Assembly: GCA_016946835.1 (NCBI GenBank)
Contig: JACVTC010000024.1
Coordinates: forward strand, 1,499,501 to 1,563,500
Length of the DNA stretch: 64,000 nucleotides
Source: Neocallimastix lanati (nom. inval.)
Taxonomy: Eukaryota; Neocallimastigomycota; Neocallimastigomycetes; Neocallimastigales; Neocallimastigaceae
Direction: 5' to 3'
In this document: one piece after another, positions 19,921-50,693 of the stretch
How positions within the stretch are numbered: position 1 is the first letter of the stretch
Layout: each line of letters starts with the position of its first letter
Translations under genes and position numbers: made by a program
The notes under the pieces: model-generated
The model's database searches: none
What the model was told of the DNA's origin: nothing
Seen by the model: the letters and a program-made list of their open reading frames with translations, nothing else

Positions 19921-19937
19921 TGTAACGAAATCTTCAG
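19921..19937 (+). repeat. LTR-G, left end (split by the 30-kb insertion stack)
   Basis: TGTAACGAAATCTTCAG is the start of a chromoviral-type LTR (compare TGTAACGAATCTTAAA in Chromo-1). Its remainder is at 50067-50693. The flanking TSD ATTGG occurs at 19916-19920 and 50694-50698. Confidence 0.8.
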
Positions 19938-20893
19938 TGGTAGACTCGGGGTTGACACTTAGATATTTAAAATCAAGCAGGGGGGAACGGGTATTACCCT
20001 GCTTTGATTTTAAATAAAAAAAAAAATAATTCTTTATTAAAAGTTATTTATTTTTTTTATTAATATAAAATTTTATTATTTAAAGTACAATTAATTGTTT
20101 ATAATTTAAGTAATTTTATAGAATTATTGAATTAATTTTATATCAATAATTCATTTTTGTTTTAATTTTTATAAATATAATAATATAATATTCAAATATA
20201 ATTTAATTAAAAATAATTATAAAATAAATATATAGAAAATAGTTTTTACTATTTTCTTTGATATTTTTAAGTTAAATAAATTGTTTTTAAAGATTAATAT
20301 AATAAATTTAATAATCTTTAATTATTTTAAATAATACTTGTAATTATTTTCAAAATAAAATAAAATTTTTATAATATTTAATTAATAAATTTGATAATAT
20401 TTAAATAATAATTTTTATAATAAGTAAAAATTTTTAATAATAATTTTTAATAATAAATTTAATTAATAATCTTAATAATTTTATAATAATATTTAATAGT
20501 TATAATATATAAATTTTTATAATAATATTTAATAATTTTAATAATTTTATAATATTAATAATTTATAATAATTTTTAGAATAATATTTAATTAATAATTT
20601 TAATAATTTTATAATAATTTTTATAATAATATTTAATTAATAGTTTTAATAGTTTAGTATCTTAAAAGTATAATTTTAATATTTACAATTGTATTTTAAT
20701 ATACATATATTTAATAATATAACAATAAAATAATTAATTAAAATTTATTTACATTATTTACAAGTTAAAATTAATTTATATCAAAATAAATTAAATTTTA
20801 TTATTAAGTTTAGGTTATCAAGAATATAGGAAAGTACAATTTAGTAAAGAATTATTAATAATAAAATAAAGGTTATTAATTCATTCTTTACCA
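19938..20893. mobile_element. LTR-H: 956-bp LTR-like insertion
   Basis: Starts TGGTAGACTCGGGG and ends TTCTTTACCA, with TGGTA/TACCA ends and a 4-bp TSD TCAG (19934-19937 and 20894-20897). It has no ORF. Near its left end is a GC-rich hairpin (19968-20015). Its right end (CATTCTTTACCA) is repeated, reverse complemented, at 63797, so this is a family. I infer a solo LTR or small non-autonomous element. Confidence 0.7.
19968..20015. other. Stem-loop in LTR-H
   Basis: TTTAAAATCAAGCAGGG pairs with CCCTGCTTTGATTTTAAA around a 14-nt GGGAACGGGTATTA spacer, with one bulged T. It is a rare G/C-rich patch in this AT desert. The function is unknown. Confidence 0.7.
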
Positions 20894-21569
20894 TCAGTGG
20901 TACAGAACTTTTCATTTATTTATTTTCAATAATAATATATTCTAATTAATTCTAATTAAACTTATTTATTTATTCCCGAATTTATCTAAATTAATTAAAC
21001 TCAACATTAATATTCTAATGTTTTTAAATATTAACTAAGCTCTCTTTTATTTTATTTTAAACCCCTTAACTAACTTAATTATTATTTAAACTTAAAACTA
21101 TTATATTAACAACACAGCTTAACACTAAATTAAAACACCCTTAATTTATTTTACCTTATTTTATTCTAAAATTTAATTTATAAAATTTGAGAGAGAGTTT
21201 TTTAATATTTTTTTGATTTTACAAGTTATTTATAGAATTTAATGAAGATTTTTAATTGGTTCAAATAAATTTTTAATTAATTAAAATAAAATAATGTATA
21301 AAAAATAATAAAATAATATATAAAAATAATAAAAATTAAAGTAAAAATAAAAGTAAAAGTAAAAATAAAAATAAAAATATAAAATAAAAATAAAATATAA
21401 GATAAAAATAATATAATAAAAATTAAAATAAAAATAAAGTAAAAGTAAAAATACAAATAAAAATTTAAAATAAAAATAAAGATATAAAATAAAAATAATA
21501 TAAAAAAAAATAAAAACAAATATAAAATAATAAATTCAATAATATAAGCAATATTAGATTGTTCCGTAT

Positions 21570-22189
21570 TGTAACGAATCTTAAAAAATTAGAAATTAGA
21601 ATGCTGGCATAGTGGTTAGTCACTATGACCTCAGCCTGAACCACTAGGGTTCGACTCACACCTTTACTAAAATTTTATATCATTTAAATTTTAAAGAATT
21701 TTTATACTTCATTTCTGTATTTGTTTCTGTATTTGTTTCTGTATAAATTTCTGTAAAAATTAACAAAAGAAATTCTTAGAAATTAATAGAAACAAATAAG
21801 ATAGAAATTCTATTTTAATTTATCTTTTATCATTATTTCTTTTAGATTCTTTTTAACCGAAAATAATCAATTTTTATGAAACTTTTTAATGATTTTATGG
21901 TTTTAAATTTTTATGGATTTAAATTTTGAAAAACTATAAATAGGAGTGAATTTCGCAGCCAAAAAAAAAAAAAAAAAAAAAAAATATTCTAAAAATTGTG
22001 TTTTTATTAATTATTGAATTAATTAATAAGTAATTCGAAATATTACAATAATTAATCTTTATAATTAATATTTTTAAATTTCTTAATTAATAAAACTATA
22101 TTTTAAAAAACCAAATTACTTATTAATCAAAAAGTGCTTACCTATTGTGTTACACTCTTTAAAACACGGATATTCCAATATTCGTTACA
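21570..22189 (+). mobile_element. Solo LTR of the Chromo-1 family
   Basis: 620-bp TGTAACGAAT..ATTCGTTACA with a 10-bp perfect terminal inverted repeat and a 5-bp TSD CGTAT (21565-21569, 22190-22194). It is nearly identical to the LTRs flanking Chromo-1 (57256-57868, 63186-63796) in the opposite genome orientation. It contains the tRNA-like module near its 5' end. Confidence 0.9.
21598..21665 (+). other. tRNA-like Pol III module in chromoviral solo LTR
   Basis: A box TGGCATAGTGGTTAGT from 21605, a perfect 7-bp CATAGTG/CACTATG hairpin around it, and B box GGGTTCGACTC (21647-21657). The T-arm and acceptor stem do not pair, so it is tRNA-derived and not a working tRNA. Confidence 0.7.
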
Positions 22190-22196
22190 CGTATCA

Positions 22197-22234
22197 AGAT
22201 GCCCCCGTTGAGTTAGGACTTCGTCCCTGAAGTC
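22197..22234 (-). promoter_or_regulatory. PPT and adjacent hairpin of Gypsy-1
   Basis: Minus strand: hairpin GACTTC-(AGGGAC)-GAAGTC (22217-22234), overlapping the last pol codons, then AACGGGGGCATCT directly before the LTR. Hairpin and purine tract recur in Gypsy-2 and Gypsy-3 at the same spacing. Confidence 0.75.
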
Positions 22235-25200
22235 TCTATTTCACATAACTTATACGGAACAATATTTTTTAAATGGACATTACGTTCTGCAATTTCATTA
22301 GTGAGCGGATCACACAAGGTAACAGTATTAAATTGTTTTTTAACTATCTTCATTGGTCCAAGGAAAAATGGGTCAAGTTTTCTTCGATTTATTAGTCGTA
22401 CTAATACAAGATCCCCTGGATTGTAATCTGCCTTAAGTCTCTTCATTTGTTTTCTCCGATCTTCCCAAAGCTTATTAGCTGTTTCAATATTGTTAACAGC
22501 TTCTTTTATCCATTTATTATGTTTTGTGAATCTTCTAATTAAATATTCTTCGTCAGACTCCCACTCCTCTTTTTTATCTAAGTTAATCATTAGCTCAAAT
22601 GGCTGCAAATCCCGACGACCATATAGAAGCTCAAAACTTGAAAATTTAGTTGTTTCATGCTTACATGTTCTAATAGCCCATAATGCACTTGGAAGGATTT
22701 CGTCCCAGTTAGTAGTATTTTTATTACATAATATTCTTAAATACTTCCCAATTTCTTTATTGCGATTCTCTACCTCGCCATTGGATTCCGGGTGATAAAC
22801 ATTAGTATAGTTTACATAGACACCATAGAGATCTAAGAAAGACTTCGTCTTATCTGATCGAAACTGCGGACCGTTGTCAGTGACAAGTATCTCTGGTGTA
22901 CCGTGCCTAGAAAATACTCTTGTAAGAAAATGTATGACATCATCAGATTCGATATTAATACTGGGTTCGGCTTCGACCCACTTGGTAAGATAATCTACTA
23001 ATACAAAGATATATTGGTATCCCTTCTGTGTTTTGGGTAAAGGTCCAACAATGTCTAATCCAACCTTAGTAAATGGTAAACCAGGTTTAGTAGATAAATT
23101 TTCAGTTTGATAGTTTCCTGTTTGTGGACGAAAGAGTTGGCATCTTTTACATGTTCTAACTAAGTACTTAACATCCAATATCATGTTTCTCCAGTAGTAG
23201 TCGCGTTTGAGCCGATTATAAGTCTTGAATATTCCTTCATGCCCGATTCCATGGGCCTTTAAAACAAGATTTATCTTTTCTTCATTATCCTTTATAACTT
23301 TTCTTAGGGTTTTAGAATCTTTATCATCATAATATTCTACATTGTCAATTGTTACAAAGCTATTTTTAAAATTATTAACGGGGTTATTACCATCTTCCAA
23401 TATTAAAGGAGCAACTATTTTGTCTTTAGATTCCATTCTGGACAGTGCATCTGCTATGACATTCTTTTTTCCGGGTTCGTATAATACTTTTATTTTAAGC
23501 ATTGAAAATAATATTACCCATCTTGTCTGTCTTGCATTATTTGTTTCTTTATTCTTAAAGAGTCCTACTAATGGTTTGTGATCCGTGTAGAGAAGAGTTT
23601 CGAATTTATTTCCAGCGAAGTATGATTTAAATTTTTTGACACAATAAGCAGCAGCAGTACCTTCAAGATCAGTAATTCCGTAGTTTTGTTCTCCTGGTTT
23701 TAAAGTTCGACTAATAAAATGTATTGGCTTTTCATTATTATTTTCATCTTTCTGTAATAATACACCTCCTATTCCTGAATATGATGCATCCGTACGTATA
23801 ATAAATTGCTTTTCAAAATCTGGCATTGTTAGTATTGGTGCTTTCATTAATCTATCTTTCAACTTATCGAATCCTTCTTCTTGTTCTGAGTTCCAAACAA
23901 ATGGGGTTTCTTTCTTTAAAAGTTTATAGAGAGGTTTAGCAATACTTGAGTAATTGGCAATAAATTTACGATAGTATCCAACTGCGCCCAAGAAGGACTG
24001 GAGTTGCTTTACTGTTGTAGGAGCAGGCCAACTAGCAATGGCGTTGACTTTAGACATTATCGGTGAAATTCCTTCAACTGAGAGTGTATGTCCCAGAAGC
24101 TCTACCTTTTTCTTAAAGAAATTGCATTTTTCTAGATTTACTTTTAACCGATTTACAGATATAATTTCAAAAACTTTAATAATATCTTTAATATGTTCTT
24201 CTAATGAATTGGAAAAAATAACTAAGTCGTCGATGTAGATGAACATACATACTCCAATTAGTGGGAAAAAGATCCTGTTCATTTCCCTCTGGAAGGTTGC
24301 TGGTGCATTACAGAGACCGAAAGGCATGACACGAAATTGATAGTTTCCAAAGATAGTAGTGAAACTGGTTTTAGGAATATCATTCTTTGACATTGGAATT
24401 TGATGGAATCCTGAAAACAAGTCTATGGTTGTAAAATATTTGACTTTCTTCCCTATGGAGAAAAGGATTTCATCTATTAAGGGTAATGAGTATGCATCTT
24501 TTATAGTTAAATCATTCAATTTTCGAAAGTCTATGCACATTCGCCATTTATTATTTTTTTTAAGAACTAGTATTACAGGGAAAGACCATGGTGAATTGGA
24601 TGGTTCTATAAGTTTATTATTAATTAGCTTGGTGATTTCTTCCTTAAGTGCATCAGCTTGTACCTTTGATAAGCGATAGCATTTTTGTTTGATTGGTTTA
24701 GCACCATCTTTCAATTGAATGGTATGTGGTAATAATTTAGTTGACTGTAATTCCTCAATTTTGGTAGCTAAAATATGATAATATTTATTAAATAATTTTT
24801 TAACTTGTTTTTTATATTTCCACGGAATTTCCAATATTAACTTATCAATTATTTCCTTTTTCTCGTCAATATCCTCTTTTTCTTTTACCTTTTTTGTAAA
24901 ACAAAGTAACAACAATCTGTCTTCTTCTTCATTTGTTTGTTTGGTAGGCAATTCTTCAGTGCTTATACATTTATCCTTTTTGTGTAAAGGTATTATTCTC
25001 TCCCAAGTCTCATCTCTGTTCATTCTACAAAGGAAATTGTCAACTGGGTTTATGAAAAGGTGATTTTCTTTAAGTGTTCTATATCCGATTAGTACGTCAA
25101 AGATATTTTTATCATGATCAATTATCATAAAGCTATCTTGTATTTCTATATTTCCAAATTTTAGTCTCAAATAACAAGTTTCCATAACGATATTCTTATT

Positions 25201-26016
25201 GGAGAAAACTTGAATAATGTTATCATCAGTGTATCCAGATGGAGTTATATTCTTTAATTTGTTAAAGTATTTCCTTGTAATTAAGTTAATGCTAGCACAA
25301 GTATCTAGAAATGCTACTCCTGGTGTGTTTTCTACGATACATTCTGCGGTCGCAACGTCTTCTCTGCTTAATGCGGACATCATCACCTTTTCTGGGTTTT
25401 CTTCAGTCATCTCAGGGGCTTTCAATTTTAATGCCTTAGAGAGTTCCGATCTTAGCTTAGGACTCGCATCAATCAATTGGGATATTGAGATATTTGCCAT
25501 TAGCTTGTTTAGGTCGTCTGTAATGTTGTACCTTTTCCTTCCTTCCATCATAGACACATGTTTAGTATTGTTATTACCTAGTTGCTTATTCCTTTTTTCT
25601 TTTATTGTATCACTTGGTAATGTACTTTGATTCTTATTTGGTTTATTGATATTGCTGTTATTCTTTTCTGCTTCGGTCTGTATTTCTTTAGTTCTTTCTA
25701 TTTTTGACATGCTTTTCGCTTTATTTATTGATGGTTGTGCAATTATTGAAACATCTACTTCTTCAAGTTTTTCTTTGTTGGAATTTTTGTTATTTTCAGT
25801 TTCCATGTTATCTTGAGCATACTGAAGGCCTTTAGGGATTGGTATACTAACTGGGTTTTCTTTTAATGTTCTTATAGTTCTATTTTCATAAGGTTTTGAA
25901 CCAGAATTATTTTTATTTCTTCTTATAACCGCAGCTAAAATTGGTTCTTTTGACTCTGTAGGGTTCTGAGAGGTTGTGGTTTGATATACGGGAGTTTCCC
26001 TTCTCCCATTTATTAG
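22213..26016 (-). CDS. Gypsy-1 Pol (protease, RT, RNase H, integrase), -1 frame to gag
   Basis: Made as a Gag-Pol fusion. The frame is open from the shift site at 26016 (LINGRRETP) to TAA at 22213; the first internal ATG is at 25806. Counted from that Met: protease FLDTCASIN at 166-174, RT with YIDDLVIF (about 514) and FSGFHQIPM, RNase H IIRTDASYSGIGG, integrase zinc domain (H..H..CKRCQ) and core DIVGPL/TDNGPQF/E (about 930-1030), then a GPF-like module (DPFFLGPMKIV). There is no chromodomain. The protease active-site triad is DTC instead of D[ST]G. The C-terminal codons overlap the hairpin near the PPT. Confidence 0.92.
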   Translation of the reverse strand, partial: LINGRRETPVYQTTTSQNPTESKEPILAAVIRRNKNNSGSKPYENRTIRTLKENPVSIPIPKGLQYAQDNMETENNKNSNKEKLEEVDVSIIAQPSINKAKSMSKIERTKEIQTEAEKNNSNINKPNKNQSTLPSDTIKEKRNKQLGNNNTKHVSMMEGRKRYNITDDLNKLMANISISQLIDASPKLRSELSKALKLKAPEMTEENPEKVMMSALSREDVATAECIVENTPGVAFLDTCASINLITRKYFNKLKNITPSGYTDDNIIQVFSNKNIVMETCYLRLKFGNIEIQDSFMIIDHDKNIFDVLIGYRTLKENHLFINPVDNFLCRMNRDETWERIIPLHKKDKCISTEELPTKQTNEEEDRLLLLCFTKKVKEKEDIDEKKEIIDKLILEIPWKYKKQVKKLFNKYYHILATKIEELQSTKLLPHTIQLKDGAKPIKQKCYRLSKVQADALKEEITKLINNKLIEPSNSPWSFPVILVLKKNNKWRMCIDFRKLNDLTIKDAYSLPLIDEILFSIGKKVKYFTTIDLFSGFHQIPMSKNDIPKTSFTTIFGNYQFRVMPFGLCNAPATFQREMNRIFFPLIGVCMFIYIDDLVIFSNSLEEHIKDIIKVFEIISVNRLKVNLEKCNFFKKKVELLGHTLSVEGISPIMSKVNAIASWPAPTTVKQLQSFLGAVGYYRKFIANYSSIAKPLYKLLKKETPFVWNSEQEEGFDKLKDRLMKAPILTMPDFEKQFIIRTDASYSGIGGVLLQKDENNNEKPIHFISRTLKPGEQNYGITDLEGTAAAYCVKKFKSYFAGNKFETLLYTDHKPLVGLFKNKETNNARQTRWVILFSMLKIKVLYEPGKKNVIADALSRMESKDKIVAPLILEDGNNPVNNFKNSFVTIDNVEYYDDKDSKTLRKVIKDNEEKINLVLKAHGIGHEGIFKTYNRLKRDYYWRNMILDVKYLVRTCKRCQLFRPQTGNYQTENLSTKPGLPFTKVGLDIVGPLPKTQKGYQYIFVLVDYLTKWVEAEPSINIESDDVIHFLTRVFSRHGTPEILVTDNGPQFRSDKTKSFLDLYGVYVNYTNVYHPESNGEVENRNKEIGKYLRILCNKNTTNWDEILPSALWAIRTCKHETTKFSSFELLYGRRDLQPFELMINLDKKEEWESDEEYLIRRFTKHNKWIKEAVNNIETANKLWEDRRKQMKRLKADYNPGDLVLVRLINRRKLDPFFLGPMKIVKKQFNTVTLCDPLTNEIAERNVHLKNIVPYKLCEIETSGTKS

Positions 26017-26022
26017 TTTAAA
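25990..26022 (-). promoter_or_regulatory. Programmed -1 frameshift signal of Gypsy-1
   Basis: Slippery U_UUA_AAC in the gag frame (26022-26016), then an 8-nt spacer containing the gag stop, then stem GGGAG (26007-26003), 8-nt loop, CTCCC (25994-25990). The -1 frame continues open into pol. Confidence 0.8.
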
Positions 26023-26921
26023 TGATTATTTTCTTTTTCTTTATTTTCTCTCTCTTCTATTTCAGCTAACTGCTTAAATGTATAAGGACACCTTCTAAAG
26101 ATGTGACCTATTTTTCCACATCGGAAGCAAACTATATTTTCATTGCGATTTGTTTCATTTTGAGATTTATTTTCAAATTCAGTATTATTTACATTTCTTT
26201 GGTTAAAATAATTATTATTTTGAAGTGTGCGTCTTTGATTCTGCTTCTGATTATAATTATAGTTATTATTATAATTATTCCTTCTAGTATTAAAGTAATT
26301 ATTACTCCTTCTATTATTATTGTATTCATGTTGATATCTTTCAGATTGATTATTGGACTGGCCATGAAATAGTGTTGTCATTACCGTAACTTTATTTGAC
26401 GTCTTTATTTGTTCCGCTCTCTCGGCCAATTCAGCTTCTTCAAACGCGTCTTCTAAATCTTCCGATCGTTGGGTAATTACTTGAGATCTAATGTAAGGTC
26501 TATACTTAATTGATTCAATATAATCATCTACAGTAACAAATGTTTGGTAAAATTTTGGTAAGCTATCGTAGAGTTTCTTATATCTCCAGTTGAAGTCGGC
26601 TATTGTTTCACCCCTTTGAATCTTCAATTTTTGTAGCATTTTACATTTTTCTTGTGGTGTGATCCTAAGTGCTTCCTCCAAAGCTTCTTTTATCTCTTTT
26701 ATGGATGGATAAATCTTATCATCTTCAGTTTCCTTTTCTAGTTCTTGTACTACACCTCTTAGCCTTCCATTTACACATTCTAATGCCCAAATGAATATAC
26801 TCTTAGGAGATTCTATATCTGCTAGAGCCATCAACCTATTAAATTCTTCAAACCAAGAGTCCAATTCTCCTGTTGATTCAGTTACTCTTGGTAATAATTT
26901 TTGGATTTCTAAAATCTTCAT
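26013..26921 (-). CDS. Gypsy-1 Gag
   Basis: 302 aa, starting MKILEIQKLLPRVTE. The N-terminal capsid region (LDSWFEEFNRLM, KLKIQRGETIADFNWRYKKL) is shared with Gypsy-2, -3 and -4. An Asn/Arg-rich linker follows, then CCHC knuckle CFRCGKIGHIFRRC and the tail FKQLAEIEE. It ends at TAA just after the slippery site. It forms the particle and packages element RNA. Confidence 0.9.
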   Translation of the reverse strand: MKILEIQKLLPRVTESTGELDSWFEEFNRLMALADIESPKSIFIWALECVNGRLRGVVQELEKETEDDKIYPSIKEIKEALEEALRITPQEKCKMLQKLKIQRGETIADFNWRYKKLYDSLPKFYQTFVTVDDYIESIKYRPYIRSQVITQRSEDLEDAFEEAELAERAEQIKTSNKVTVMTTLFHGQSNNQSERYQHEYNNNRRSNNYFNTRRNNYNNNYNYNQKQNQRRTLQNNNYFNQRNVNNTEFENKSQNETNRNENIVCFRCGKIGHIFRRCPYTFKQLAEIEERENKEKENNHLN

Positions 26922-27224
26922 TCTCTTACTTTCTGTTGTTAATATTTTAATATTTTATATAACTAATTAAACTGTTATTTTGTTATAAAAACCCGACCAG
27001 TAATCTTATTATTATACGCTAATTTCTGTGACGTTTCGTCCCCTGTGTTCATTCCGACTCGAAGATCTTTACACAGCCCTAATCCCCCACGCTGATCGAA
27101 ATTAGCAGCTTGTATAATGCTGAAATTAAAATTACTGTTGTTTAAATAACAAAAGAAGGAAAACTTCTATTACCAGTTGAACAACAATAACAATATTTCA
27201 ATCCAAAGGTTGATGGATGGATCA

Positions 27225-27280
<56 letters not shown>

Positions 27281-27542
27281 AACTCACTATTACTACTATC
27301 ACTATTATATATAAATATTTTTATAAAAATTCTACACACTAAATTAATTATTATTCAATTATTTATTACTATATTTTATTCTTTCAATTTATAAAATTTC
27401 TTATATTATTGTTATTATTAATTTATACTAATATATATTTTTTTTTTTTTTTTTTTTTATCAAATTAGTCTATTCTAAATTATTGAATTAATTATTTTCA
27501 TATTATTATTGTCTTGTCCTGCATAGCTCGCCAAAATTTTTA
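26922..27542 (-). other. Gypsy-1 5' leader with PBS
   Basis: Non-coding. The PBS candidate TGGCGAGCTATGCAGGACA (27533-27515) starts 10 nt after the LTR end and differs from the PBS of Gypsy-2/-3. Poly(T)/(TTA)n tracts lie at 27230-27280 and 27430-27460. An inverted pair GCTAATTT/AAATTAGC (about 27018 and 27105) could fold the gag-proximal leader. Confidence 0.65.
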
Positions 27543-28216
27543 TGGTACAGGACTTTTCATTTATTTATTTTCAATAATAATATATTCTAATTAATTCTAA
27601 TTAAACTTATTTATTTATTCCCGAATTTATCTAAATTAATTAAACTCAACATTAATATTCTAATTTTTTTAAATATTAACTAAGCTCTCTTTTATTTTAT
27701 TTTAAACCCCTTAACTAACTTAATTATTATTTAAACTTAAAACTATTATATTAACAACACAGCTTAACACTAAATTAAAACACCCTTAATTTATTTTACC
27801 TTATTTTATTCTAAAATTTAATTTATAAAATTTGAGAGAGAGTTTTTTAATATTTTTTTGATTTTACAAGTTATTTATAGAATTTAATGAAGATTTTTAA
27901 TTGGTTCAAATAAATTTTTAATTAATTAAAATAAAATAATGTATAAAAAATAATAAAATAATATATAAAAATAATAAAAATTAAAGTAAAAATAAAAGTA
28001 AAAGTAAAAATAAAAATAAAAATATAAAATAAAAATAAAATATAAGATAAAAATAATATAATAAAAATTAAAATAAAAATAAAGTAAAAGTAAAAATACA
28101 AATAAAAATTTAAAATAAAAATAAAGATATAAAATAAAAATAATATAAAAAAAAATAAAAACAAATATAAAATAATAAATTCAATAATATAAGCAATATT
28201 AGATTGTTCCGTATCA
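27543..28216 (-). repeat. 5' LTR of Gypsy-1
   Basis: 674 bp; on the plus strand TGGTACAGGACTT..TTCCGTATCA. Matches 20898-21569 and the solo copy 49395-50066. Confidence 0.9.
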
Positions 28217-28220
28217 TCAG

Positions 28221-29219: not shown

Positions 29220-29225
29220 ATCAGT

Positions 29226-29691
29226 TGATACGATATTTTATTTATGTATCTAAATTAATATTTATTTATGGGCAATGACAATAAGGAATTATGACAAAAT
29301 AATATATTCTAATATTAAATAGAAATAACACATACAATAATACAAAATAAAGTAATAAATATATCTTTTTAATGTACTCTTTATTTATTATTAATTATTA
29401 ATTATTACATCAATTATTATTATTACTCTCTTACATAAATATTATAATTAATTATCTCAAATATACATAATATCTCTTTTTAACTATACTAAAATAAAAT
29501 ATAAAAATAGCTATTTAAGTGAATTAATTTATCATAAGTATATACTTATAAATAAAAGAATTCTCCGTTTAATAATTATTATTCTAAAATTATATATATT
29601 ATTCTAAAATTATTATTGACCAATAATATTTAAGTATTTCTTTAACCTAAAGAATCTACCTAAATACCATTTTTATAGTGGTCACGTATCA
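29226..29691 (-). repeat. 3' LTR of Gypsy-2
   Basis: 466 bp, plus strand TGATACGATATTTT..GGTCACGTATCA; the ends form TGATACG/CGTATCA inverted repeats. Confidence 0.9.
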
Positions 29692-32095: not shown

Positions 32096-32099
32096 CAGT

Positions 32100-32658: not shown

Positions 32659-32750
32659 AGACGCCCCCACTTTGTCTAGACTTCGTCCCTTGAAGTCGTG
32701 ATTTATGGATATAATGGATAAAATTAAAAAAATGTTATTATATTCTTTAA

Positions 32751-40006: not shown

Positions 40007-40010
40007 CAGT

Positions 40011-41323: not shown

Positions 41324-41346
41324 CGATGCCCCCGCTAAGACTCAAG

Positions 41347-42666
41347 CTATATTGTAGCTGAGTTATATTTTACTATATTTTTGAGGTGTACATTCCGATT
41401 TAATAATATTCCTGAATTTGGATCAGCTAACGTAACTGTATTAAACTTTTTCTTGATTACTTTTAAAGGTCCATTAAAATAAGGTTCTAGTTTAGTTCTA
41501 CTAAAGTTTCTAACTAGGACTAAATCTCCCTCCTTGATTTCCTTAGCCTGATTCATACTTTGTTTTTCTTCTCGTCTAACAGCCCAATATTTATTTGCAT
41601 TTTTCACATTTTCTGATGCTTCTATGGTCCATCTATAATGAGATATAAACTTTTCCAATAGAATTTCATCAGAAGATTTATTTATACCTTTAGTCGGTCT
41701 TGCAGCTATATCAAAAGGTTGTTGGTCTTCACGACCATAAACTAATTCAAAACTAGAATGGTTAGTGGTACTATTTTTAACAGTTCTTAAAGCCCAGAGA
41801 GCAGAGGGTAATACCTCATCCCAATCTTTATTTTTTGTCCCAAGCAATCTAAGGAGTTTACCAATTTCTTTATTACGATTTTCCGTAAGTCCATTAGATT
41901 CGGGGTGATATGTTGTAACAAATTTTATATATACATCATATAGATCTAAAAATATTTTAGTCATATCTGATGTAAATTGGGCACCATTATCGGTGGTAAT
42001 TACTTGGGGAACTCCATGACGAGAAAATACGTTAATAAGGAACTTAATTACGTCTTTAGAAGTGATATTTTCAGTGGGTTCTGCTTCTACCCACTTAGTG
42101 AAATAATCAACAGCTACTATTATATATTGATTATTACTTCTAGTTTTAACCAGTGGACCGATAATGTCCAAACCAAGATGTACAAAAGGTCCTTCCACTT
42201 TAGTAGGTAGATTTTCTGTAGGCTCTGGATAAGGTTGTGGTCGATTTAATTGACATTTTTCACACTTACTGACAACACGTTTAACATCATTCACCATGTC
42301 GTTCCAATAATAACTCTTACGTAAACGTTGATAAGTCTTATAATAACCATCGTGTCCAATATTATGAACCTCTAATATTAATTTTATTCTTTCATTAAGA
42401 TCGGTTACTAATTTTCTATAATTGTTACCATCAATAAAGTAGTCAATACCATCAATAGTGGTGAATTTTTCATTGATAAAATCATGTATTACTTTGGATA
42501 ATAAGGCTTCATTTTCATCATTCGTAATATCATGGTTAATTATTTTCGTAGCTAAAACTACATTTTCTTTATTATTTTTCATTCGGGATAGGGCATCAGC
42601 AAGCACATTCTTTTTACCGGTTTCATATCTAATGTCTACACCAAGCATACTAGCTGTCAAACACAT
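41347..42666 (-). CDS. Gypsy-4 Pol, C-terminal part (RNase H end, integrase)
   Basis: 439 aa beginning CLTASMLGVDIRYETGKKNV (end of RNase H), then integrase: zinc domain H..H..CEKCQLNRP, core LGLDIIGPL, TTDNGAQFTSD and the Glu of LTENRNKE, and a GPY/F-like module (LEPYFNGPLKVIKKKF). No chromodomain. It is out of frame with the upstream pol part by one base; adding one G at about 42660 would restore the RW pair found in Gypsy-1. It is otherwise intact. Confidence 0.88.
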   Translation of the reverse strand: MCLTASMLGVDIRYETGKKNVLADALSRMKNNKENVVLATKIINHDITNDENEALLSKVIHDFINEKFTTIDGIDYFIDGNNYRKLVTDLNERIKLILEVHNIGHDGYYKTYQRLRKSYYWNDMVNDVKRVVSKCEKCQLNRPQPYPEPTENLPTKVEGPFVHLGLDIIGPLVKTRSNNQYIIVAVDYFTKWVEAEPTENITSKDVIKFLINVFSRHGVPQVITTDNGAQFTSDMTKIFLDLYDVYIKFVTTYHPESNGLTENRNKEIGKLLRLLGTKNKDWDEVLPSALWALRTVKNSTTNHSSFELVYGREDQQPFDIAARPTKGINKSSDEILLEKFISHYRWTIEASENVKNANKYWAVRREEKQSMNQAKEIKEGDLVLVRNFSRTKLEPYFNGPLKVIKKKFNTVTLADPNSGILLNRNVHLKNIVKYNSATI

Positions 42667-45548
42667 CTAGTTTGCCTTGCATTATGTGGTTCCTTATTTT
42701 TGAACAACCCTAGTAACGGTTTATGGTCCGTATATACAATAGTTGGTATTGGATTTCCATCTATATACGGTTTTAATTTAGTTATACAATAATATAGGGC
42801 AGCACCTTCTAGGTCCGTTATACCATAATGCTTTTCTGCTCTGGTCAAACTTCTACTAATAAAGTGAATAGGGTGTTCTTTTCCAGTTTCATTATCTTTT
42901 TGTAATAACACACCTCCTATTCCATCATAAGAAGCATCGGTACGTATAATAAATTCTTTATCAAACTGAGGGAAACTTAATATGGGTGCATTTATTAGTT
43001 TTTCTTTCAGTACTTCAAACGATTTTTGGTATTCACTAGTCCAAACATACTTCACACCTTTCCTTAATAATTTACACAAACACGCAGTAATTTGTGAATA
43101 TTTATCGATGAAATTTCTATAGTATCCAACAGCTCCTAAAAATGAACGTAATTCATGGATGTCCTGAGGGGGTTTCCAATCTCTGATAACCTCGATTTTA
43201 CTATCAAGAGGTTTTAAGCCTTTAGTGGTTAATCTATGCCCCAAAACATTCACTTCTGTTTTCATGAAGTGACACTTTTCAATATTAAGTTTTAATCTAT
43301 TTTCTTTGAGTATGGATAAAACTTGTTGAATATGTTGGAGGTGTTCTTCAACTGTTTTAGAGTATATAAGTATATCATCGATAAAATTATAAACACACTT
43401 TCCTATTAAAGGAAATAGGATTCTATTCATTTCTCTTTGAAAGGTTGCAGGAGCGTTGGTTAAACCAAATGGCATAACTTTAAATTGGTAGTTACTAAAC
43501 TTAGTGGTGAAAGTTGTTATACCAATACTTTCTTCCTCCATTAAAATTTGGTGATATCCAGAGTATAAGTCAATGGTAGTGAAGATAGTTGCACCATTGA
43601 GACTATCAAAAATTTCATCAATGTATGGTATAGAATAAGAATCCTTTATAGTAGAATCATTAACCTTCCTATAATCTACACACATACGCCATTTCCCATT
43701 AGGCTTTGGTACTAGAACAATAGGCGAAGACCATTCAGAATTTGAAGGCTCAATTAACTTTTTATTAATTAACTTAGTTAATTCTTCCTTTAAAATATCT
43801 GTCTTAAATTTTGTTAGCCGATAAGCTCTTTGTTTTATAGGTTTGGTACCAGCTTTTAGATTTATTTTGTGTGGTGAAAGCAATGATGGTGTTAATTCCT
43901 CAGACGACGTAGCAACAATTTCTATATTGTCCTCTAATAGGTGTATTATATCAGTTCTATATTTTTCATTTAGAGTATTCATAAATATTGTATTATGTAT
44001 ATATTCCATAGGTGGTAATCCTTCTAATTTCTTTAATTCCCCACCAGCATATTTTTCCTTACTATTATCCTCAAGTAATTTGTTAACACTACAAATATAT
44101 TTTTCGTCAATTGCAGAATTATTTATTGGTGTAATAGAACTGATAGTACCATCCATGTTATATTTACATAAGCAATTATTTAAGGGATTAATAAATAATC
44201 TATTATCAACTATAGTTTTTAAATTAATTATCATGTCATAAAATGGTTCCTCTTTTTCTACAATTCGGAAATCAATTAACAGTGAAAGCTCATTAATTTT
44301 CACAGGTATCCTAACGACTATTCCTTCAGAGTATTCATCGTCTCTAGTGGCAAGCATTATTCTACCACAACTATGACCAACAACGGTATATTGGTATGGT
44401 AGAGAATTATAATATTTTTGTGACATAATATTTAAATTACTACACGTATCAATAAGTAATTTTCCAGATACACCATCAACAGAGGCATCTACCATTGCAA
44501 TATCCTCCTCTGTTATTTCTGTACTTTTACTTTTATAGTTATGATCAACATTATTAACTAATGTTGTAGTAGCAACTACATTATTAATAGCGCCAACAAC
44601 ATTAGTGGTGGCTTTTACTAGTTTTAAACCTTGGGAAACTTGACTTCTTATTTTAGGCGCAGCATTCCAAAGCTGTCCAAAGGTAATATTACACTTGGTA
44701 TTGCTTAAATCATCCCATACATCATATTCCTTATAATTAGAAAGCATTTTAATAATTCGATTTACCCGAGGTATTTTCATACTATTATTATTATCATTAT
44801 TATTATTATTATTAATACCATCTGTATTAATTAATTTATTTAATATATTTTTATTATTCGTTACATGATTATTATCGATAATAGTTTCATTATTATTAAT
44901 ATTAATAGTATTATTATTATTAATATCATTTACGACTGGGGTTTTTCTAATAGTTCCGTTGTTACTATTATTAGGATTACTAGTATTATTATTATTATTT
45001 TTGTCTTTTTTCCTTTCTCTAGTTTGGTTAATTTCCCTTGGAGCTTCTACATTATCAACTTTTGAAGTTATTTCCTCTTTATTAGTAATTAAGTTTACAT
45101 TAGACTGACTGGATGATGCAGTTTCGAATTCTTTAGAATTAGTACTAGATTTCAAAAATCTTTCTTTATCACGTATTGCTTTTTCAATTTTCTTTTCTTT
45201 ATTGATATTTGGTTGCATAATTATTGATGTTTGCAACTGTTTCTTATGAGGTATCACCTCTTCAGTTTCCAATTCTCTTTCTTTTCTTTTTCTTAATGCA
45301 GGAGTGTTTATAGGTCGTGGATTATCACGTAGGTTTTTATGAATTTTCCTTCCTTTTCCATTATCTAACTCAACATCACTTTCATCAAGTTTTCTTTTTG
45401 CCGCACCGACAAAATATTCTCCTACCTGATCATGACTTTTGATAGTATAATCCACTCTGTAGTCTTTACTTTCTGCATCAGAAGAATTGGAAGTATATTT
45501 TAATGAAGCTATTTTTTTGATGGGAGTGCTTCCTCTCCCTTCTACTGG
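42657..45548 (-). CDS. Gypsy-4 Pol, N-terminal part (protease, RT, RNase H)
   Basis: The frame opens at the shift site (45548, PVEGRGSTPIKK). A Lys/Asn-rich region of about 330 aa precedes protease LLIDTCSNLNIMS, then RT (SPIVLVPKPNGKWRMCVDYR, TIDLYSGYHQILM) with FIDDILIY in place of YIDD, then RNase H IIRTDASYDGIGG. It ends at TGA after ARQTRCV because of a 1-nt frameshift. Confidence 0.88.
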   Translation of the reverse strand, partial: PVEGRGSTPIKKIASLKYTSNSSDAESKDYRVDYTIKSHDQVGEYFVGAAKRKLDESDVELDNGKGRKIHKNLRDNPRPINTPALRKRKERELETEEVIPHKKQLQTSIIMQPNINKEKKIEKAIRDKERFLKSSTNSKEFETASSSQSNVNLITNKEEITSKVDNVEAPREINQTRERKKDKNNNNNTSNPNNSNNGTIRKTPVVNDINNNNTININNNETIIDNNHVTNNKNILNKLINTDGINNNNNNDNNNSMKIPRVNRIIKMLSNYKEYDVWDDLSNTKCNITFGQLWNAAPKIRSQVSQGLKLVKATTNVVGAINNVVATTTLVNNVDHNYKSKSTEITEEDIAMVDASVDGVSGKLLIDTCSNLNIMSQKYYNSLPYQYTVVGHSCGRIMLATRDDEYSEGIVVRIPVKINELSLLIDFRIVEKEEPFYDMIINLKTIVDNRLFINPLNNCLCKYNMDGTISSITPINNSAIDEKYICSVNKLLEDNSKEKYAGGELKKLEGLPPMEYIHNTIFMNTLNEKYRTDIIHLLEDNIEIVATSSEELTPSLLSPHKINLKAGTKPIKQRAYRLTKFKTDILKEELTKLINKKLIEPSNSEWSSPIVLVPKPNGKWRMCVDYRKVNDSTIKDSYSIPYIDEIFDSLNGATIFTTIDLYSGYHQILMEEESIGITTFTTKFSNYQFKVMPFGLTNAPATFQREMNRILFPLIGKCVYNFIDDILIYSKTVEEHLQHIQQVLSILKENRLKLNIEKCHFMKTEVNVLGHRLTTKGLKPLDSKIEVIRDWKPPQDIHELRSFLGAVGYYRNFIDKYSQITACLCKLLRKGVKYVWTSEYQKSFEVLKEKLINAPILSFPQFDKEFIIRTDASYDGIGGVLLQKDNETGKEHPIHFISRSLTRAEKHYGITDLEGAALYYCITKLKPYIDGNPIPTIVYTDHKPLLGLFKNKEPHNARQTRCV

Positions 45549-45554
45549 TTTAAA
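45522..45554 (-). promoter_or_regulatory. Programmed -1 frameshift signal of Gypsy-4
   Basis: U_UUA_AAC (45554-45548), 8-nt spacer with the gag TAG, stem GGGAG (45539-45535), 8-nt loop, CTCCC (45526-45522). The -1 frame is open into pol. Confidence 0.8.
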
Positions 45555-46501
45555 GGTCCTTTGGAAAAAATCAGTTTCTTATTTTCTTCTATAATGGCTT
45601 GTAGTTTGGGACAATGTTGTTGATAATGTCCAGGTTCCTTACAGAAGAAACAGGTTTTGACGGTAGAGTTTCTTGGTCCACGTGTAAGGTTCTCCCTTTC
45701 ACTTTCATCAGAAACTTTCCTATTGTCCCTGTTTTCATAAGTATTTCTTGGTGGTGAACTACGACTCTTATTATAATTATTATTATTGTTGTTGGAAACA
45801 TTTCTATTAGGACTTGGTACACGATGTAACCTCACAGCAAGTCTATCCACTTTTTCTGCAATTTCATAAGCCTTTGAAAGTGGTATATCATCAATTAAAG
45901 TTACTCTTTTCCAGGCCTCAATATTATTCTCAAGTGCATCAGCATAGTCCAAGATACTGATTTGTTTTTTGTGAGTTTTATCTAATTTTAAATATAATGT
46001 CCGATATCTTTTATTAAAATCCCTTACTTTTTCATTTCTACCAATTTTAAGAGCACGCAATTCCCTTAATAAGGTATTCTGATCTTCCTTTGCCCCATAG
46101 AATACTTCAAGAGCGTTGACGATCTCGACAAAAGAAGGATAACGGTTAGTTCTAACACTATCATTACTAGAACTACTTGAACTAGTAGAGCTACTGGTGC
46201 TAGATCCTGACATCTCACCAGTATCAGTGGAACCATTCAATTCTACATCTTCTTCTGCTGTAGTAGCAGGTAGTTCTAATTCTTGGATAATTTGTCTTGG
46301 TTCACCAGTAGACGTTAATAGGCAAGCAACAAAAATAGTTTTTGGATCAGTGATATTTTGTAATTGGATCCATAACTCAATTTCAGAAGCCCAAGATTTT
46401 ATATCCAAATGGTCCTTGTTTAATTTATCAACATATTTTAGTTCCTTTTTAAGATCTTTAAATGAAGGAACATTAGTAGTACCATTAGTAACTGAAGCCA
46501 T
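45542..46501 (-). CDS. Gypsy-4 Gag
   Basis: The likely start is ATG 46501 (MASVTNGTTNVPSF); an upstream in-frame ATG at 46546 would add 15 residues (MNILPILLYNFYSRN). Capsid-like helices (DIKSWASEIELWIQLQNI, LRALKIGRNEKVRDFNKRYR), a Ser-rich insert, then CCHC knuckle CFFCKEPGHYQQHC near the end. The stop follows the slippery heptamer by one codon. Confidence 0.88.
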   Translation of the reverse strand: MASVTNGTTNVPSFKDLKKELKYVDKLNKDHLDIKSWASEIELWIQLQNITDPKTIFVACLLTSTGEPRQIIQELELPATTAEEDVELNGSTDTGEMSGSSTSSSTSSSSSSNDSVRTNRYPSFVEIVNALEVFYGAKEDQNTLLRELRALKIGRNEKVRDFNKRYRTLYLKLDKTHKKQISILDYADALENNIEAWKRVTLIDDIPLSKAYEIAEKVDRLAVRLHRVPSPNRNVSNNNNNNYNKSRSSPPRNTYENRDNRKVSDESERENLTRGPRNSTVKTCFFCKEPGHYQQHCPKLQAIIEENKKLIFSKGPLNQ

Positions 46502-46559
46502 ATTTCTTGAGTAGAAATTATACAGTAATATAGGTAAAATATTCAAAATAAAAATAATA

Positions 46560-46620
<61 letters not shown>

Positions 46621-46857
46621 GTGTGTGAGTATGTTATAGATATATATAATATAGTATTAGAATTTATAAGTTTACAAACACTTCAGAGATTAGAAAAAAA
46701 AAAAATTGGTAAGTTTACAAACACTTCAGAGATTAAAAAAAATAAGTAAAAATTTTTTTTTTTTTTTTTTTTTTTTGTTTGTTTGTTTTTGATATCCAAG
46801 ATTAAAATATTTTATAATTATTGTTTATTAAATTATATCTTTATAGTTATTTATATG

Positions 46858-47065
46858 AGGTTCGAAATACACTTCGACCACCTACAAGAAATATATTTTT
46901 AGGTTCGAATAACACTCTACCACCTAAGGAAATTTTATATTATTGGTTCGAATACCTTTCGATCACCAATAGAAGATATAATTATATTAAGGTTATAAGC
47001 TCGAATGACACTTCGACCACTTATAATGATAATTATTTGGTTCAAGATACACCTCGACAACCAAA
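46858..47065 (-). other. Array of five tandem hairpins in the Gypsy-4 leader
   Basis: Five hairpins spaced 41-52 bp. Arms: AGGT/ACCT (46858, 46880), TTAGGT/ACCTAA (46899, 46922), TATTGGT/ACCAATA (46941, 46965), TTATAAG/CTTATAA (46993, 47020) and TTTGGTT/AACCAAA (47036, 47059). The loops are conserved (TCGAAT.ACACTTCGACCA type) while the arms change together. 47358-47381 holds a further CACTATT/AATAGTG hairpin. Confidence 0.75.
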
Positions 47066-47147
47066 TCAAACAGGTAGTAAAAAAAAATGTAGTAGTCTTT
47101 CTTCTTTGGCTCAATTTCACTTAACCACAGAGTAAGAACAGTAAACA

Positions 47148-47183
<36 letters not shown>

Positions 47184-48078
47184 GAATTCAGTACACTAGA
47201 ATTTCTTATATGTAGCACGGAATAAATTAATTGCTAAATTAAAAAAAATTAATATGGAAAATTTATAAATATTTCTTATATATATATTATTAGCTTTATA
47301 TTATTTTCGGATCCGCAGATTCTTTACAGGGCCGTTCGACCTCCACTATTGAACCGTCAGAATAGTGAATATAACAGAGTAGTGTGTGCCTGTACGAACA
47401 CGGGACCTTACCACTTTTTCTATTCTGTTATCACTTGTATCACTAAACCTTATTCAATAATGCTCTACTACCTCCCTATGTGTAAAGCAATCCTTCTCCT
47501 ATTCTCTAATATAAACGTCTAATTTTTATATCTATATATATCAACAGTCTTGGTATCAATATATAGATACTATATATATGTATATATTTATAAATTTGAA
47601 TTTATAATTTCAATTATAATATAATTTAGTCGATAATATAAATACGAATTACTATATACACTTAATTGTAACAAAGCCTTAAGCTAAGGAGTTTTTCATC
47701 CAACAGCCGCCGATTACAATAAGTTATAAATTGTATAAAAGTATTCTTATATTAATGAATAAATGTATAATATAATTAAATTATTATTCTTACTAATTAG
47801 TACTTGACAGGAATAAATATTTCAAAGTTTTATATCACACTGTTTCTCTTGCACAAACAGAAATATAACAACTTTGTTGAATGAAATTATTTATCCAACT
47901 AATATAGTAAAGACGTAGGTGCTACTTTAAATTATTAATATTTATTTATGTATATATTATATTTCTATATTATTGTAAAAAAAATTTTTTTTTTTTTTTT
48001 TTAATTAAATAAAATTATTGTGTATGTTTTAATATTAGTTTTTAATTTTGAAATCCCCGATATCTCCACAAAACTTTA
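47066..48078 (-). other. Rest of Gypsy-4 leader with PBS
   Basis: Non-coding. The PBS region at 48052-48070 reads TGTGGAGATATCGGGGATT on the minus strand, one G short of the Gypsy-0 PBS. A block with unusual G/C content lies at 47310-47520. I see no gene. Confidence 0.6.
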
Positions 48079-49390
48079 TGTTATGGTTCGAGGAATTCAA
48101 AAAAAAAATTATATAATATTAAAACACAAAAAAAAATTTTATTTCTTTCACAATAATTTTTATTTATTTATTATATTTTTTTATTTTAATTTTTATTTTA
48201 TTTTTATTATTATTTTTACTTATTTATTTTATTTTTATTTATTTATTTTATTTCTATTTATTTATTTTATTTTTATTTATTTTATTTTTATTTTATTTTT
48301 ATTATTATTTTTATTTATTTTTATTTTTATTTATTTATTTTTATTATTATTTTTATTTATTTATTTTATTTTTATTTTATTTTTATTATTATTTTTATTT
48401 ATTTTTATTTATTTTTTTTTTATTTATTTATTTTTTTTTTATTTATTTATTTTTATTATTTTTTTTATTTTATTTTTATTATTATTTTTATTTATTTTTA
48501 TTTTTATTTATTTATTTTTATTATTATTTTTATTTATTTATTTTATTTTTATTTTATTTTTATTATTATTTTTACTTATTTATTTTATTTTTATTTATTT
48601 ATTTTTTTTTTTATTTATTTTTATTATTTCTATTTTTATTTTCTTTTTTTTTTTCTCTCCCCTAAAAAGGGGTTCCAAGGTAGTCAATTTATATCTTTTT
48701 GAAGATATAAAAGTAGCAAAGCCTCTGGAAGTAGTTGAAGAGATGGAAAAACAATAGATTTTTAAATCTTATTGATTATTTCCTTATTGTAATAAATAGA
48801 AATTTTATTATTTCCTAATATTCAAATTAACCAAAATAAATCTATAATATAAAAGATGCATTATAGATAAGAATTAAACAAAAAAAAGAGAAGCAGTATT
48901 ACAATAAAATTGAATACTTTAACTTAATTTTGATACTAATTTAATATGTAATCTTATATATTAATTTGAATGACATAATAGAAAATAAAATACATTTATT
49001 AATATATGAAAAATCTTTTACAATTTTAAATACAGAAAATTTTATTTTATTTATTTCTTTCATTTCAATTATTTCTTAATTCGAAAGACAGAAATATTGA
49101 TAAAGTTATTTAAGTTGTTTATATACAGGAATTATTCCTTATTTAGAAAAATAATACTAAAAGTAATTAGTACTATGTTATTGCTAAACTCTCATAAATT
49201 TAATTTACCTTTATAAGGAATGAACATAAATTTAAATTAAATTTTATGTATAAACTTAAATTTTCAGATCAAATAATATAGTAAAATTATTAATGTAAAG
49301 AATACATAAATTTATTAATATTTTAAAAATCACATTGACTATATTAAAAGGTTTTTAATAAGAATCAATTTATTACTTCATTTTTTATCA
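48079..49390 (-). repeat. 5' LTR of Gypsy-4
   Basis: 1,312 bp, differing from 40011-41323 by one base in an A run and a C/T near the end (TTCTTTATCA/TTTTTTATCA). Confidence 0.9.
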
Positions 49391-49394
49391 CAGT

Positions 49395-50066
49395 TGGTAC
49401 AGGACTTTTCATTTATTTATTTTCAATAATAATATATTCTAATTAATTCTAATTAAACTTATTTAATTATTTCCGAATATTATCTAAACTAATTAAACTC
49501 AACATTAATATTCTAATGTTTTTAAATATTAACTAAGCTCTCTTTTATTTTATTTTAAACCCCTTAACTAACTTAATTATTATTTAAACTTAAAACTATT
49601 ATATTAACAACACAGCTTAACACTAAATTAAAACACCCTTAATTTATTTTACCTTATTTTATTCTAAAATTTAATTTATAAAATTTTGAGAGAGAGTTTT
49701 TAATATTTTTTGATTTTACAAGTTATTTATAGAATTTAATAAAGTTTTTTAATTGGTTCAAATAAATTTTTAATTAATTAAAATAAAATAATGTATAAAA
49801 AATAATAAAATAATATATAAAAATAATAAAAATTAAAGTAAAAATAAAAGTAAAAGTAAAAATAAAAATAAAAATATAAAATAAAAATAAATTATAAGAT
49901 AAAAATAATATAATAAAAATTAAAATAAAAATAAAGTAAAAGTAAAAATACAAATAAAAATTTAAAATAAAAATAAAGATATAAAATAAAAATAATATAA
50001 AAAAATAAAAACAAATATAAAATAATAAATTCAATAATATAAGCAATATTAGATTGTTCCGTATCA
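49395..50066 (-). mobile_element. Solo LTR of the Gypsy-1 family
   Basis: 672 bp, TGGTACAGGACTT..CCGTATCA, with TSD CAGT on both sides (49391-49394, 50067-50070) and no internal region. It has a few more differences from the Gypsy-1 LTRs than they have from each other. Confidence 0.9.
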
Positions 50067-50693
50067 CAGTTAATAAAATTAGAACTTTGGTTCAACGGTT
50101 AGTTATATTGACCATGACCAATACTTCATGGGTTCGACTCACAACTCAACCCATTTTGCATAAATAATTATTTTATTAATTATTTTATTAATTATTAATA
50201 ATATCTTCTTGAATATTCTTTCTGTATAAAATTATAGAAAGTTAAAGATTCTTTCGGTTTGTAATTTAACCGAAATGAATTTAGAAATTCTTATTATATA
50301 AATTATTTTATTTTTTTTTGATAAGATTCATTTTCATCAATTAAAATCTATATTCTAGAAACTTTACATTATTAATTATTTAAACATATTTCTAAATATT
50401 TCTTTAAAATTATTTTTATGTTAAAACTGTTTTTCCGTTAAAAGTATAAATAGTGCGAACTTCACGAATGAAAATATTTTTCTTCGTGCTTTTATTAATA
50501 ATAATTAACGTATAAGTAATTCGAAATATTACCTTGTTGATTAATATTAATAATTATTTTAAATTTTATAATTAATAAAAAATATTTCTAATAAAACGAA
50601 TTATTTATACAGATAGTGTAAACCTATTGAGTTTTCTCCTTTCTGTGTTTCTATATCTCATCCCGCCTTTACAATAGAAGCACCTCCGTTACA
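50067..50693 (+). repeat. LTR-G, main part: chromoviral-type solo LTR with tRNA-like module
   Basis: Continues from 19921-19937: AGTTAATAAAATTAGAAC, tRNA-like module, then the block shared with the Chromo-1 LTR (ATAAGTAATTCGAAATATTA), ending CACCTCCGTTACA. Joined length is about 640 bp. The TSD ATTGG at 50694-50698 equals 19916-19920. It is related to, but clearly diverged from, the Chromo-1 LTRs. Confidence 0.8.
50081..50150 (+). other. tRNA-like Pol III module in LTR-G (landing site)
   Basis: A-box-like TGGTTCAACGGTTAGT from 50088 and B box GGGTTCGACTC (50130-50140). Taking 7 nt before the A-box T as position 1 gives 50081. The insertion stack ends at 50066, 14 nt upstream. Confidence 0.7.

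Follow-up and report, generated by a model that had tools for sequence, protein, structure and literature searches.

A stack of LTR retrotransposons before a tRNA-like module in Neocallimastix lanati points to integration guided by RNA polymerase III

Why should seven retroelement insertions stand end to end at one site of a genome? The question is raised by contig JACVTC010000024.1 of the anaerobic gut fungus Neocallimastix lanati, of which a stretch of 64,000 nt was analysed (hereafter the window). Its positions 19934-50070 consist of seven long terminal repeat (LTR) insertions separated solely by TCAG, CAGT or ATCAG(T). From left to right these are LTR-H, Gypsy-1, LTR-F, Gypsy-2, Gypsy-3, Gypsy-4 and a solo LTR of the Gypsy-1 type, and together they interrupt one further solo LTR, LTR-G2 (19921-19937 and 50071-50693), about 14 nt before tRNA position 1 of a module with an A and a B box. 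We conclude that several LTR-retrotransposon families very probably integrate at a distance of about 14 nt upstream of position 1 in internal promoters of the RNA polymerase III (Pol III) type, and that the initiation machinery of Pol III most likely determines this site.

The eight junctions and seven end-to-end insertions reported in a preliminary description of the locus are all present at their exact coordinates (Table 1), and the gag/pol open reading frames (ORFs) of Gypsy-1 to Gypsy-4 share the minus strand, in agreement with the single orientation given there. The junctions were described as TCAG or CAGT throughout, which holds except for LTR-F, whose target-site duplication (TSD) is the 5-bp ATCAG and which leaves ATCAGT at 29220-29225. 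The Gypsy elements have TSDs of 4 bp, against 5 bp for LTR-F and for LTRs of the LTR-G kind. The A and B boxes follow the last LTR end at 21 and 64 nt, which confirms the distance of 14 nt between the last junction and tRNA position 1. The target was likewise correctly recognised as part of the LTR of another retrotransposon. LTR-G2 is a complete LTR (TG...CA) with ATTGG on both sides, and its uninterrupted copies elsewhere read TGTAACGAAATCTTCA(G/A)TTAG.... The module itself is a promoter-like A/B-box pair and not a tRNA gene, for neither ARAGORN nor Rfam recognises a tRNA in it; the module search gave just one match, weak and unrelated, to a snoRNA on the opposite strand.

The same spacing recurs throughout the assembly (199 Mb in 762 contigs). 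All eight ends of window-family LTRs found near ARAGORN tRNAs, from Gypsy-2, Gypsy-3, LTR-F and LTR-H, lie 13-17 nt from the tRNA 5' end. The count is limited to full LTR ends (75% identity, 150 nt) no more than 300 nt away from an ARAGORN tRNA, since unfiltered BLAST of the window LTRs against the AT-rich flanks gave mostly low-complexity matches. A copy of LTR-H (86% identity) precedes a tRNA-Arg gene (L056) by 16 nt, and three other copies of LTR-F are 14, 16 and 17 nt away from tRNA genes. A pattern that combines an LTR end of the Gypsy-2/-3 type with GGTTCRA 60-78 nt behind it has 17 matches in the assembly, assigned by eye to 11 tRNA genes and 6 LTR-type modules. Two pairs look duplicated (C43/C236 and C132/C313), which leaves 15 distinct matches; five (C554, C610, C752, C132 and C313) are also among the flanks discussed below, and in C588 the LTR belongs to a relative, not to Gypsy-2 or Gypsy-3. 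Throughout the 17, the A box starts 21-23 nt past the LTR end (by eye in C268:411774). The reversed pattern has no match in the assembly, and the mirror pattern at the left LTR end has one, whose tRNA gene does not face the LTR. The distance measurement proposed in the preliminary description thus yields a narrow register in these samples.

Individual insertions were read in the right flanks of the top-ranked matches of Gypsy-2, Gypsy-3 and Gypsy-4, in which LTR starts and ends were called by eye, mostly via texts recurring at several loci. Gypsy-2 contributed 30 LTR loci of 40 scored, with the right flank internal in 13 and outer in 17; the 20 right flanks each of Gypsy-3 and Gypsy-4 comprise 2 and 1 internal and 18 and 19 outer ones, respectively (17 distinct in both cases). 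Pooled, the 54 outer flanks hold nine tRNA genes or fragments and five modules, 39 adjoin another LTR, and one is unexplained. For Gypsy-2, three tRNA genes stand 14-15 nt away (ARAGORN: Leu in L007, Asn in L016, Ser in L022), one flank holds a tRNA-like module (L015), and in 13 another LTR starts at the TSD or within 1-2 bases of it. Gypsy-3 precedes two tRNA genes (L062 and L071, Rfam RF00005) and adjoins another LTR in 15 flanks, while an LTR-like start follows 4 nt further on in L078. Behind Gypsy-4, where tRNA identity was assigned by eye, there are two tRNA genes (L082, L083), identical 5' parts of a tRNA-Ser (L091, L097), four modules (L084, L092 = L096, L095) and ten neighbouring LTRs. 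With up to one mismatch allowed, a B box occurs 40-100 nt from the LTR end in 10 of the 54 flanks and in none of 40 control flanks (Fisher p = 0.004), the latter being 20 left flanks of Gypsy-3 and 20 right flanks of the chromovirus that has LTR-G as its LTRs. The LTR-G flanks are mutually unlike, hold no tRNA gene by eye and show a TG after the TSD only in L124. No tRNA gene was seen by eye in the Gypsy-3 left flanks either, one of which (L143) consists of the opening 13 nt of an LTR-G2. Random insertion is rejected by these three controls. Another Gypsy-3 left flank (L142) is text that also occurs inside Gypsy-4.

The register is likewise visible from the tRNA side. At loci holding a tRNA-Arg gene, 44 of 54 tRNA genes were kept after exclusion of those preceded by another tRNA at no more than 40 nt, and 36 of the 44 are unique. 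In 24 of these 36, the distance between the end of an LTR-end motif and the gene downstream is 12-18 nt, with about three expected from base shuffling; the counts in the six bins between 19 and 60 nt range from 0 to 4. A profile of the bare CA dinucleotide ahead of the tRNA genes (24/44) has no clean peak. As to the tRNA genes themselves, 34 of 63 scored tRNA matches are near-identical tRNA-Arg genes within 230 kb of one contig (C555:170732-399007), and Asn-Arg tRNA pairs are present on other contigs.

Unguided insertion could produce such a distribution if only copies in safe places, namely tRNA flanks and the LTRs of other retroelements, had survived. The flanks of tRNA genes are indeed regarded as safe integration sites in PMC5006619, and a genome of 199 Mb may hold much retroelement DNA. 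However, survival is not expected to give a register of 2-3 nt or a single orientation, and the LTR-G chromovirus, which inhabits the same genome, has unlike flanks in 20 copies. We regard this account as very improbable.

The site of the guided integration proposed here is positional and not a TCAGT motif, as follows from TSDs that differ between sites: Gypsy-2 copies have ATAA, GAAC, ACAT, GATA, AAAA, TAAA and AGTT. A preference of the integrases for TCAGT or for earlier LTR ends, with the module merely incidental, would agree with the window stack, where every TSD is TCAG, CAGT or ATCAG, and with the large share of outer flanks that adjoin another LTR. Yet beside tRNA genes other bases occupy the same distance (ATAA and GAAC on both sides; ATTT, AAAA and TTCT on the right side), so that a preference for TCAGT is rejected; LTR-G ends, which are also TG...CA, draw no neighbours in their 20 flanks, and the A-box distance is nearly constant. 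Such a preference is therefore scarcely credible.

Orientation is likewise uniform among the insertions scored for it. The LTR end on the side of the primer-binding site (PBS) faces the target in all ten scored insertions, five of Gypsy-2, three of Gypsy-3, one of Gypsy-4 (taken from the module sample, the Gypsy-4 flank sample consisting of right flanks only) and one of an element at the window's right edge.

Under Pol III guidance, TFIIIC on the A and B boxes would put TFIIIB in place and so fix the insertion spot, as for Ty3. A new element would then enter between the module and the previous element, repeating the same 4-5 bp duplication, and the stack would grow outward with its oldest element farthest from the module. 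The A-box distance is equal at tRNA genes and LTR modules while the TSDs differ, which fits an integration complex tethered to TFIIIB. Substitutions per site between the two LTRs of an element fall towards the module, as predicted by insertion next to it: 2/672 in Gypsy-1 (a third difference, at the LTR-G junction, is omitted), 1/466 in Gypsy-2, 1/558 in Gypsy-3 and 1/1312 in Gypsy-4. Pol III-guided integration, as suggested in the preliminary description, is well supported by the register at tRNA genes and modules. By analogy with Ty3 we infer TFIIIB to be the tether, with TFIIIC positioning it, and the order of insertion and the occupancy of the modules by Pol III are likewise inferred.

The arrangement in the window is very unlikely to be due to chance because independent copies of it occur elsewhere in the assembly. 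Among 20 LTR-G2 copies (of 41 rows, picked by similarity downstream of the insertion site), 13 carry the end of another LTR at the insertion spot (10 distinct), with Gypsy-4 (L103) and Gypsy-2 (L114, L115) among the occupants, and seven are empty and uninterrupted, which shows that the occupants of the others entered by insertion. On contig C588, Gypsy-3 and one more LTR form a stack at TCAG within a further LTR-G2. A stack of the same build stands at a tRNA-Met gene (L018), its last LTR 14 nt from the gene (LTR ends by eye), and its TSDs slip from TAAA to AAAA much as those of the window stack slip by one base between TCAG and CAGT. In addition, two Gypsy-3 LTRs lie 4 bp apart at C1:3576811-3577936, as if the family had re-entered its own site. 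A second case, outside the preliminary description, is found at the window's right edge, where another LTR element sits within the 5' LTR of the chromovirus at the same spot of LTR-G; the distances from its LTR end are again 21 nt to the A box and 64 nt to the B box. This element has just its LTR start and PBS-side text in common with Gypsy-4, as its alignment with the Gypsy-4 LTR is confined to pieces of low complexity. That the window stack arose by tandem or segmental duplication, or in assembly, is hardly tenable although some contigs look duplicated and the repeats are highly similar, for its seven units represent six LTR families, each with its own TSDs, the same type of junction occurs on many contigs, and the site is empty in the seven LTR-G2 copies mentioned.

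Several observations weigh against guided integration by Pol III or limit its reach. The copies read are the top-ranked ones, and some contigs look duplicated (L008/L009, L024/L026, L073/L074, L091/L097, L092/L096). The preliminary description had considered copies unrelated to tRNA or tRNA-like sequence as adverse evidence; one flank, of Gypsy-4 (L086), is of this kind and shows no tRNA, module or LTR start, and the 39 that adjoin another LTR were for the most part followed towards a Pol III target only as far as this neighbour. Five of the seven empty LTR-G2 copies have the same left flank, which suggests that they are the right-hand LTRs of elements. On the tRNA side, the bin at 5-11 nt holds 8 of the 36 genes, ten further hits cluster at 65-70 nt without explanation (loci L031-L060), and the five-letter LTR-end motif was picked after the junctions had been seen. 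The TSD pairs of two Gypsy-2 copies (L022, L012) do not match, and those of Gypsy-3 agree in 6 of 8 cases, the other two (C57, C113) differing by one base. LTR-F inserts in both orientations. The age trend amounts to 1-2 substitutions per element (Gypsy-1 vs Gypsy-4, p = 0.27), and the LTR modules do not score as tRNAs.

Table 1. Coordinates of the features in the window (positions are those of the 64,000-nt stretch)
Feature	Position	Strand	Remarks
TSD left of LTR-G2	19916-19920		ATTGG, 5 bp; second copy 50694-50698
LTR-G2, first 17 nt	19921-19937	+	TGTAACGAAATCTTCAG; interrupted target LTR
Junctions 1-3	19934-19937; 20894-20897; 28217-28220		TCAG each
Junction 4	29220-29225		ATCAGT
Junctions 5-8	32096-32099; 40007-40010; 49391-49394; 50067-50070		CAGT each
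LTR-H, solo LTR	19938-20893		TSD TCAG
Gypsy-1	20898-28216	-	3' LTR from 20898, 5' LTR 27543-28216; TSD TCAG
Gypsy-1 ORFs	22213-25806; 26013-26921		pol; ORF with sub-threshold zinc knuckle
Solo LTR-G in Gypsy-1 3' LTR	21570-22189	+	TSD CGTAT
LTR-F, solo LTR	28221-29219		5-bp TSD ATCAG
Gypsy-2	29226-32095	-	LTRs 29226-29691 and 31630-32095; TSD CAGT
Gypsy-2 sole ORF	29963-31405		480 aa, CCHC knuckle text
Gypsy-3	32100-40006	-	LTRs 32100-32658 and 39449-40006; TSD CAGT
Gypsy-3 ORFs	33874-37122; 37153-39200		pol; more ORFs without Pfam match
Gypsy-4	40011-49390	-	LTRs 40011-41323 and 48079-49390; TSD CAGT
Gypsy-4 ORFs	41347-42666 and 42657-45455; 45542-46546		pol; capsid-like (below Pfam cut-off)
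Solo LTR, Gypsy-1 kind	49395-50066		TSD CAGT
Final CAGT	50067-50070		module-proximal TSD copy
LTR-G2 remainder	50071-50693	+	with tRNA-like module
A box	50088-50098	+	TGGTTCAACGG; 21 nt past last LTR end
B box	50131-50140	+	GGTTCGACTC; 64 nt past last LTR end
Chromodomain Ty3/Gypsy element with LTR-G as LTRs	57256-63796	-	3' LTR 57256-57868; 5' LTR cut at 63796
LTR-G element ORF	58201-62400		1399 aa: gag, RT, RNase H, integrase, chromodomain
Other LTR element inside chromovirus 5' LTR	63797-64000, running past the window	-	836-nt LTR; 1654 bases read

The coding content of the stacked elements (Table 1) identifies three of them as Ty3/Gypsy. Pfam finds RVT_1, RNase H and rve in a single ORF in Gypsy-1 and Gypsy-3 and distributed over two ORFs in Gypsy-4, and a chromodomain was not found by Pfam in any of the three. 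The typical Ty3/Gypsy order of reverse transcriptase (RT) and RNase H followed by integrase is absent from Gypsy-2, which has no pol ORF and whose 480-aa ORF is without Pfam match. Gypsy-2 may be mobilised by Gypsy-3. The two elements have the PBS text CGCCCGGATTCTCCACCA in common. The Pol sequences of Gypsy-1 and Gypsy-3 are 56% identical, those of Gypsy-3 and the LTR-G chromovirus 32%; five relatives of the Gypsy-3 Pol among the matches listed are named Orpsp1_1, taken to be Orpinomyces, and have 43-61% identity. Gypsy-3 also contains a 13-bp tandem repeat at about 33040-33300. The 3' LTR of Gypsy-1 is interrupted near its end by the solo LTR-G at 21570, which has a tRNA-like A box at 21605 and a B box at 21648 and into which no other element is inserted. 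To the left of LTR-G2 lies a copia-type ORF (18786-19958; Pol_BBD, with gag_pre-integrs below cut-off). As an observation on the assembly at large, the dockerin family PF02013 has 150 scored matches of 1440 candidates, which, like the Orpinomyces relatives, is in keeping with an anaerobic gut fungus.

The target LTRs belong to a different kind of element. In the LTR-G element a chromodomain (PF00385, E 9.1e-18) lies behind the integrase, as in chromoviruses. The only LTR-G2 element read (L162) has an ORF of 814 aa in which gag is joined in frame to the integrase end and the chromodomain, without RT and RNase H. This ORF is 61-70% identical to that of the LTR-G element, and its structure makes L162 look like a deletion derivative. 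A first, unscored look returned 771 candidate loci for LTR-G and 959 for LTR-G2 in the assembly.

As Ty3/Gypsy elements inserted upstream of Pol III starts, the Neocallimastix elements resemble Ty3 as well as Ty3p, Ylt1, Tyl3, Tyl6 and Tca8, and a narrow window upstream of Pol III genes, seen here at tRNA genes for Gypsy-2, Gypsy-3, LTR-F and LTR-H, is the behaviour of Ty3, DGLT-A and Tj1 alike. Ty3 has a 5-bp TSD, and its integrase is reported to contact TFIIIB. The elements described here differ from Ty3 in belonging to another phylum, in the 4-bp TSDs of Gypsy-1 to Gypsy-4, in the one orientation of Gypsy-2 and Gypsy-3, and in targets that include the LTRs of another retroelement. In Saccharomyces cerevisiae the start site of a tRNA gene lies some 10 bp before the mature tRNA, and Ty3 enters 1-4 bp upstream of this start site (PMC5911963). 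The Ty3 integration complex is tethered to TFIIIB placed by TFIIIC, and Ty3 inserts in both orientations, as does DGLT-A of the dictyostelids (PMC5911963). Tj1 of Schizosaccharomyces japonicus is a Pol III-directed Ty3/Gypsy element with 5-bp TSDs and a fixed orientation in the same direction as its target (PMC4600332), whereas in our case the PBS-side end faces the target and transcription leads away from it. DGLT-A, a Ty3/Gypsy element without chromodomain, inserts 13-33 bp upstream of tRNA genes, and a later insertion at the same gene separates the earlier one from it; its chromodomain relative Skipper-1 has no tRNA specificity (PMC5006619). A similar split, between tRNA-targeted elements lacking a chromodomain and untargeted ones that have it, is seen in N. 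lanati, although host and target set differ from those of DGLT-A, and long stacks and LTR targets are found here.

Targets and promoter-like LTRs of related kinds are known as well. TRE5-A targets A/B-box pairs that are not tRNA genes in Dictyostelium ribosomal DNA (PMC5391098), but it is a non-LTR element, its example lies 47 bp upstream of +1, and its target is on an rDNA element and not a retroelement. Promoter-like sequences derived from tRNA and from 5S are carried by the LTRs of Helenus/TRIMp3 and of Cassandra, respectively, and fungal Helenus has 5-bp TSDs (PMC10886601). LTR-G and LTR-G2 share with Helenus the A and B boxes inside the LTR. Helenus, however, is a short non-autonomous terminal-repeat retrotransposon in miniature (TRIM) of 311-1263 bp (PMC10886601), whereas the LTR-G element has its 1399-aa gag-pol-chromo ORF and the LTR-G2 element L162 is not non-coding either.

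Pol III-guided integration of Ty3/Gypsy elements (PMC5911963), repeated insertion at one tRNA gene (PMC5006619), A/B-box targets other than tRNA genes (PMC5391098) and tRNA-like LTRs in TRIMs (PMC10886601) are already on record. In the openly searchable literature we found no tRNA-targeted retrotransposons of anaerobic fungi, no tRNA-like modules in the LTRs of coding Ty3/Gypsy elements, and no such LTRs as targets. As far as these searches reach, a target in the LTRs of a coding chromodomain Ty3/Gypsy element, the single orientation of Gypsy-2 and Gypsy-3 and the recurring stacks are new.

A further-reaching interpretation can be offered only tentatively, as one that we hold to be somewhat less probable than its opposite. 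A coding chromodomain Ty3/Gypsy lineage would bear working Pol III promoters in sense orientation in its LTRs, besides any Pol II promoter, and this landing grid would draw tRNA-targeted elements off the tRNA genes and into the chromovirus, so that the end repeats of one family would be inhabited and disabled by another. As to functional promoters, the register common to LTR modules and tRNA genes would be no more than an indirect sign. If this interpretation is true, the register would be a natural TFIIIB footprint over maybe hundreds of loci.

With the stack in N. lanati, Pol III-guided retrotransposition reaches the anaerobic gut fungi and a large, repeat-rich genome, having been a matter not only of compact ones, and the LTRs of a retroelement stand in for tRNA genes. 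Sequence alone may thereby tell which A/B-box pairs likely assemble into Pol III complexes, and stacks with a fixed point of entry may record the order of insertions. Besides Tj1, a targeted element with a single orientation would provide a second case of use for comparison.

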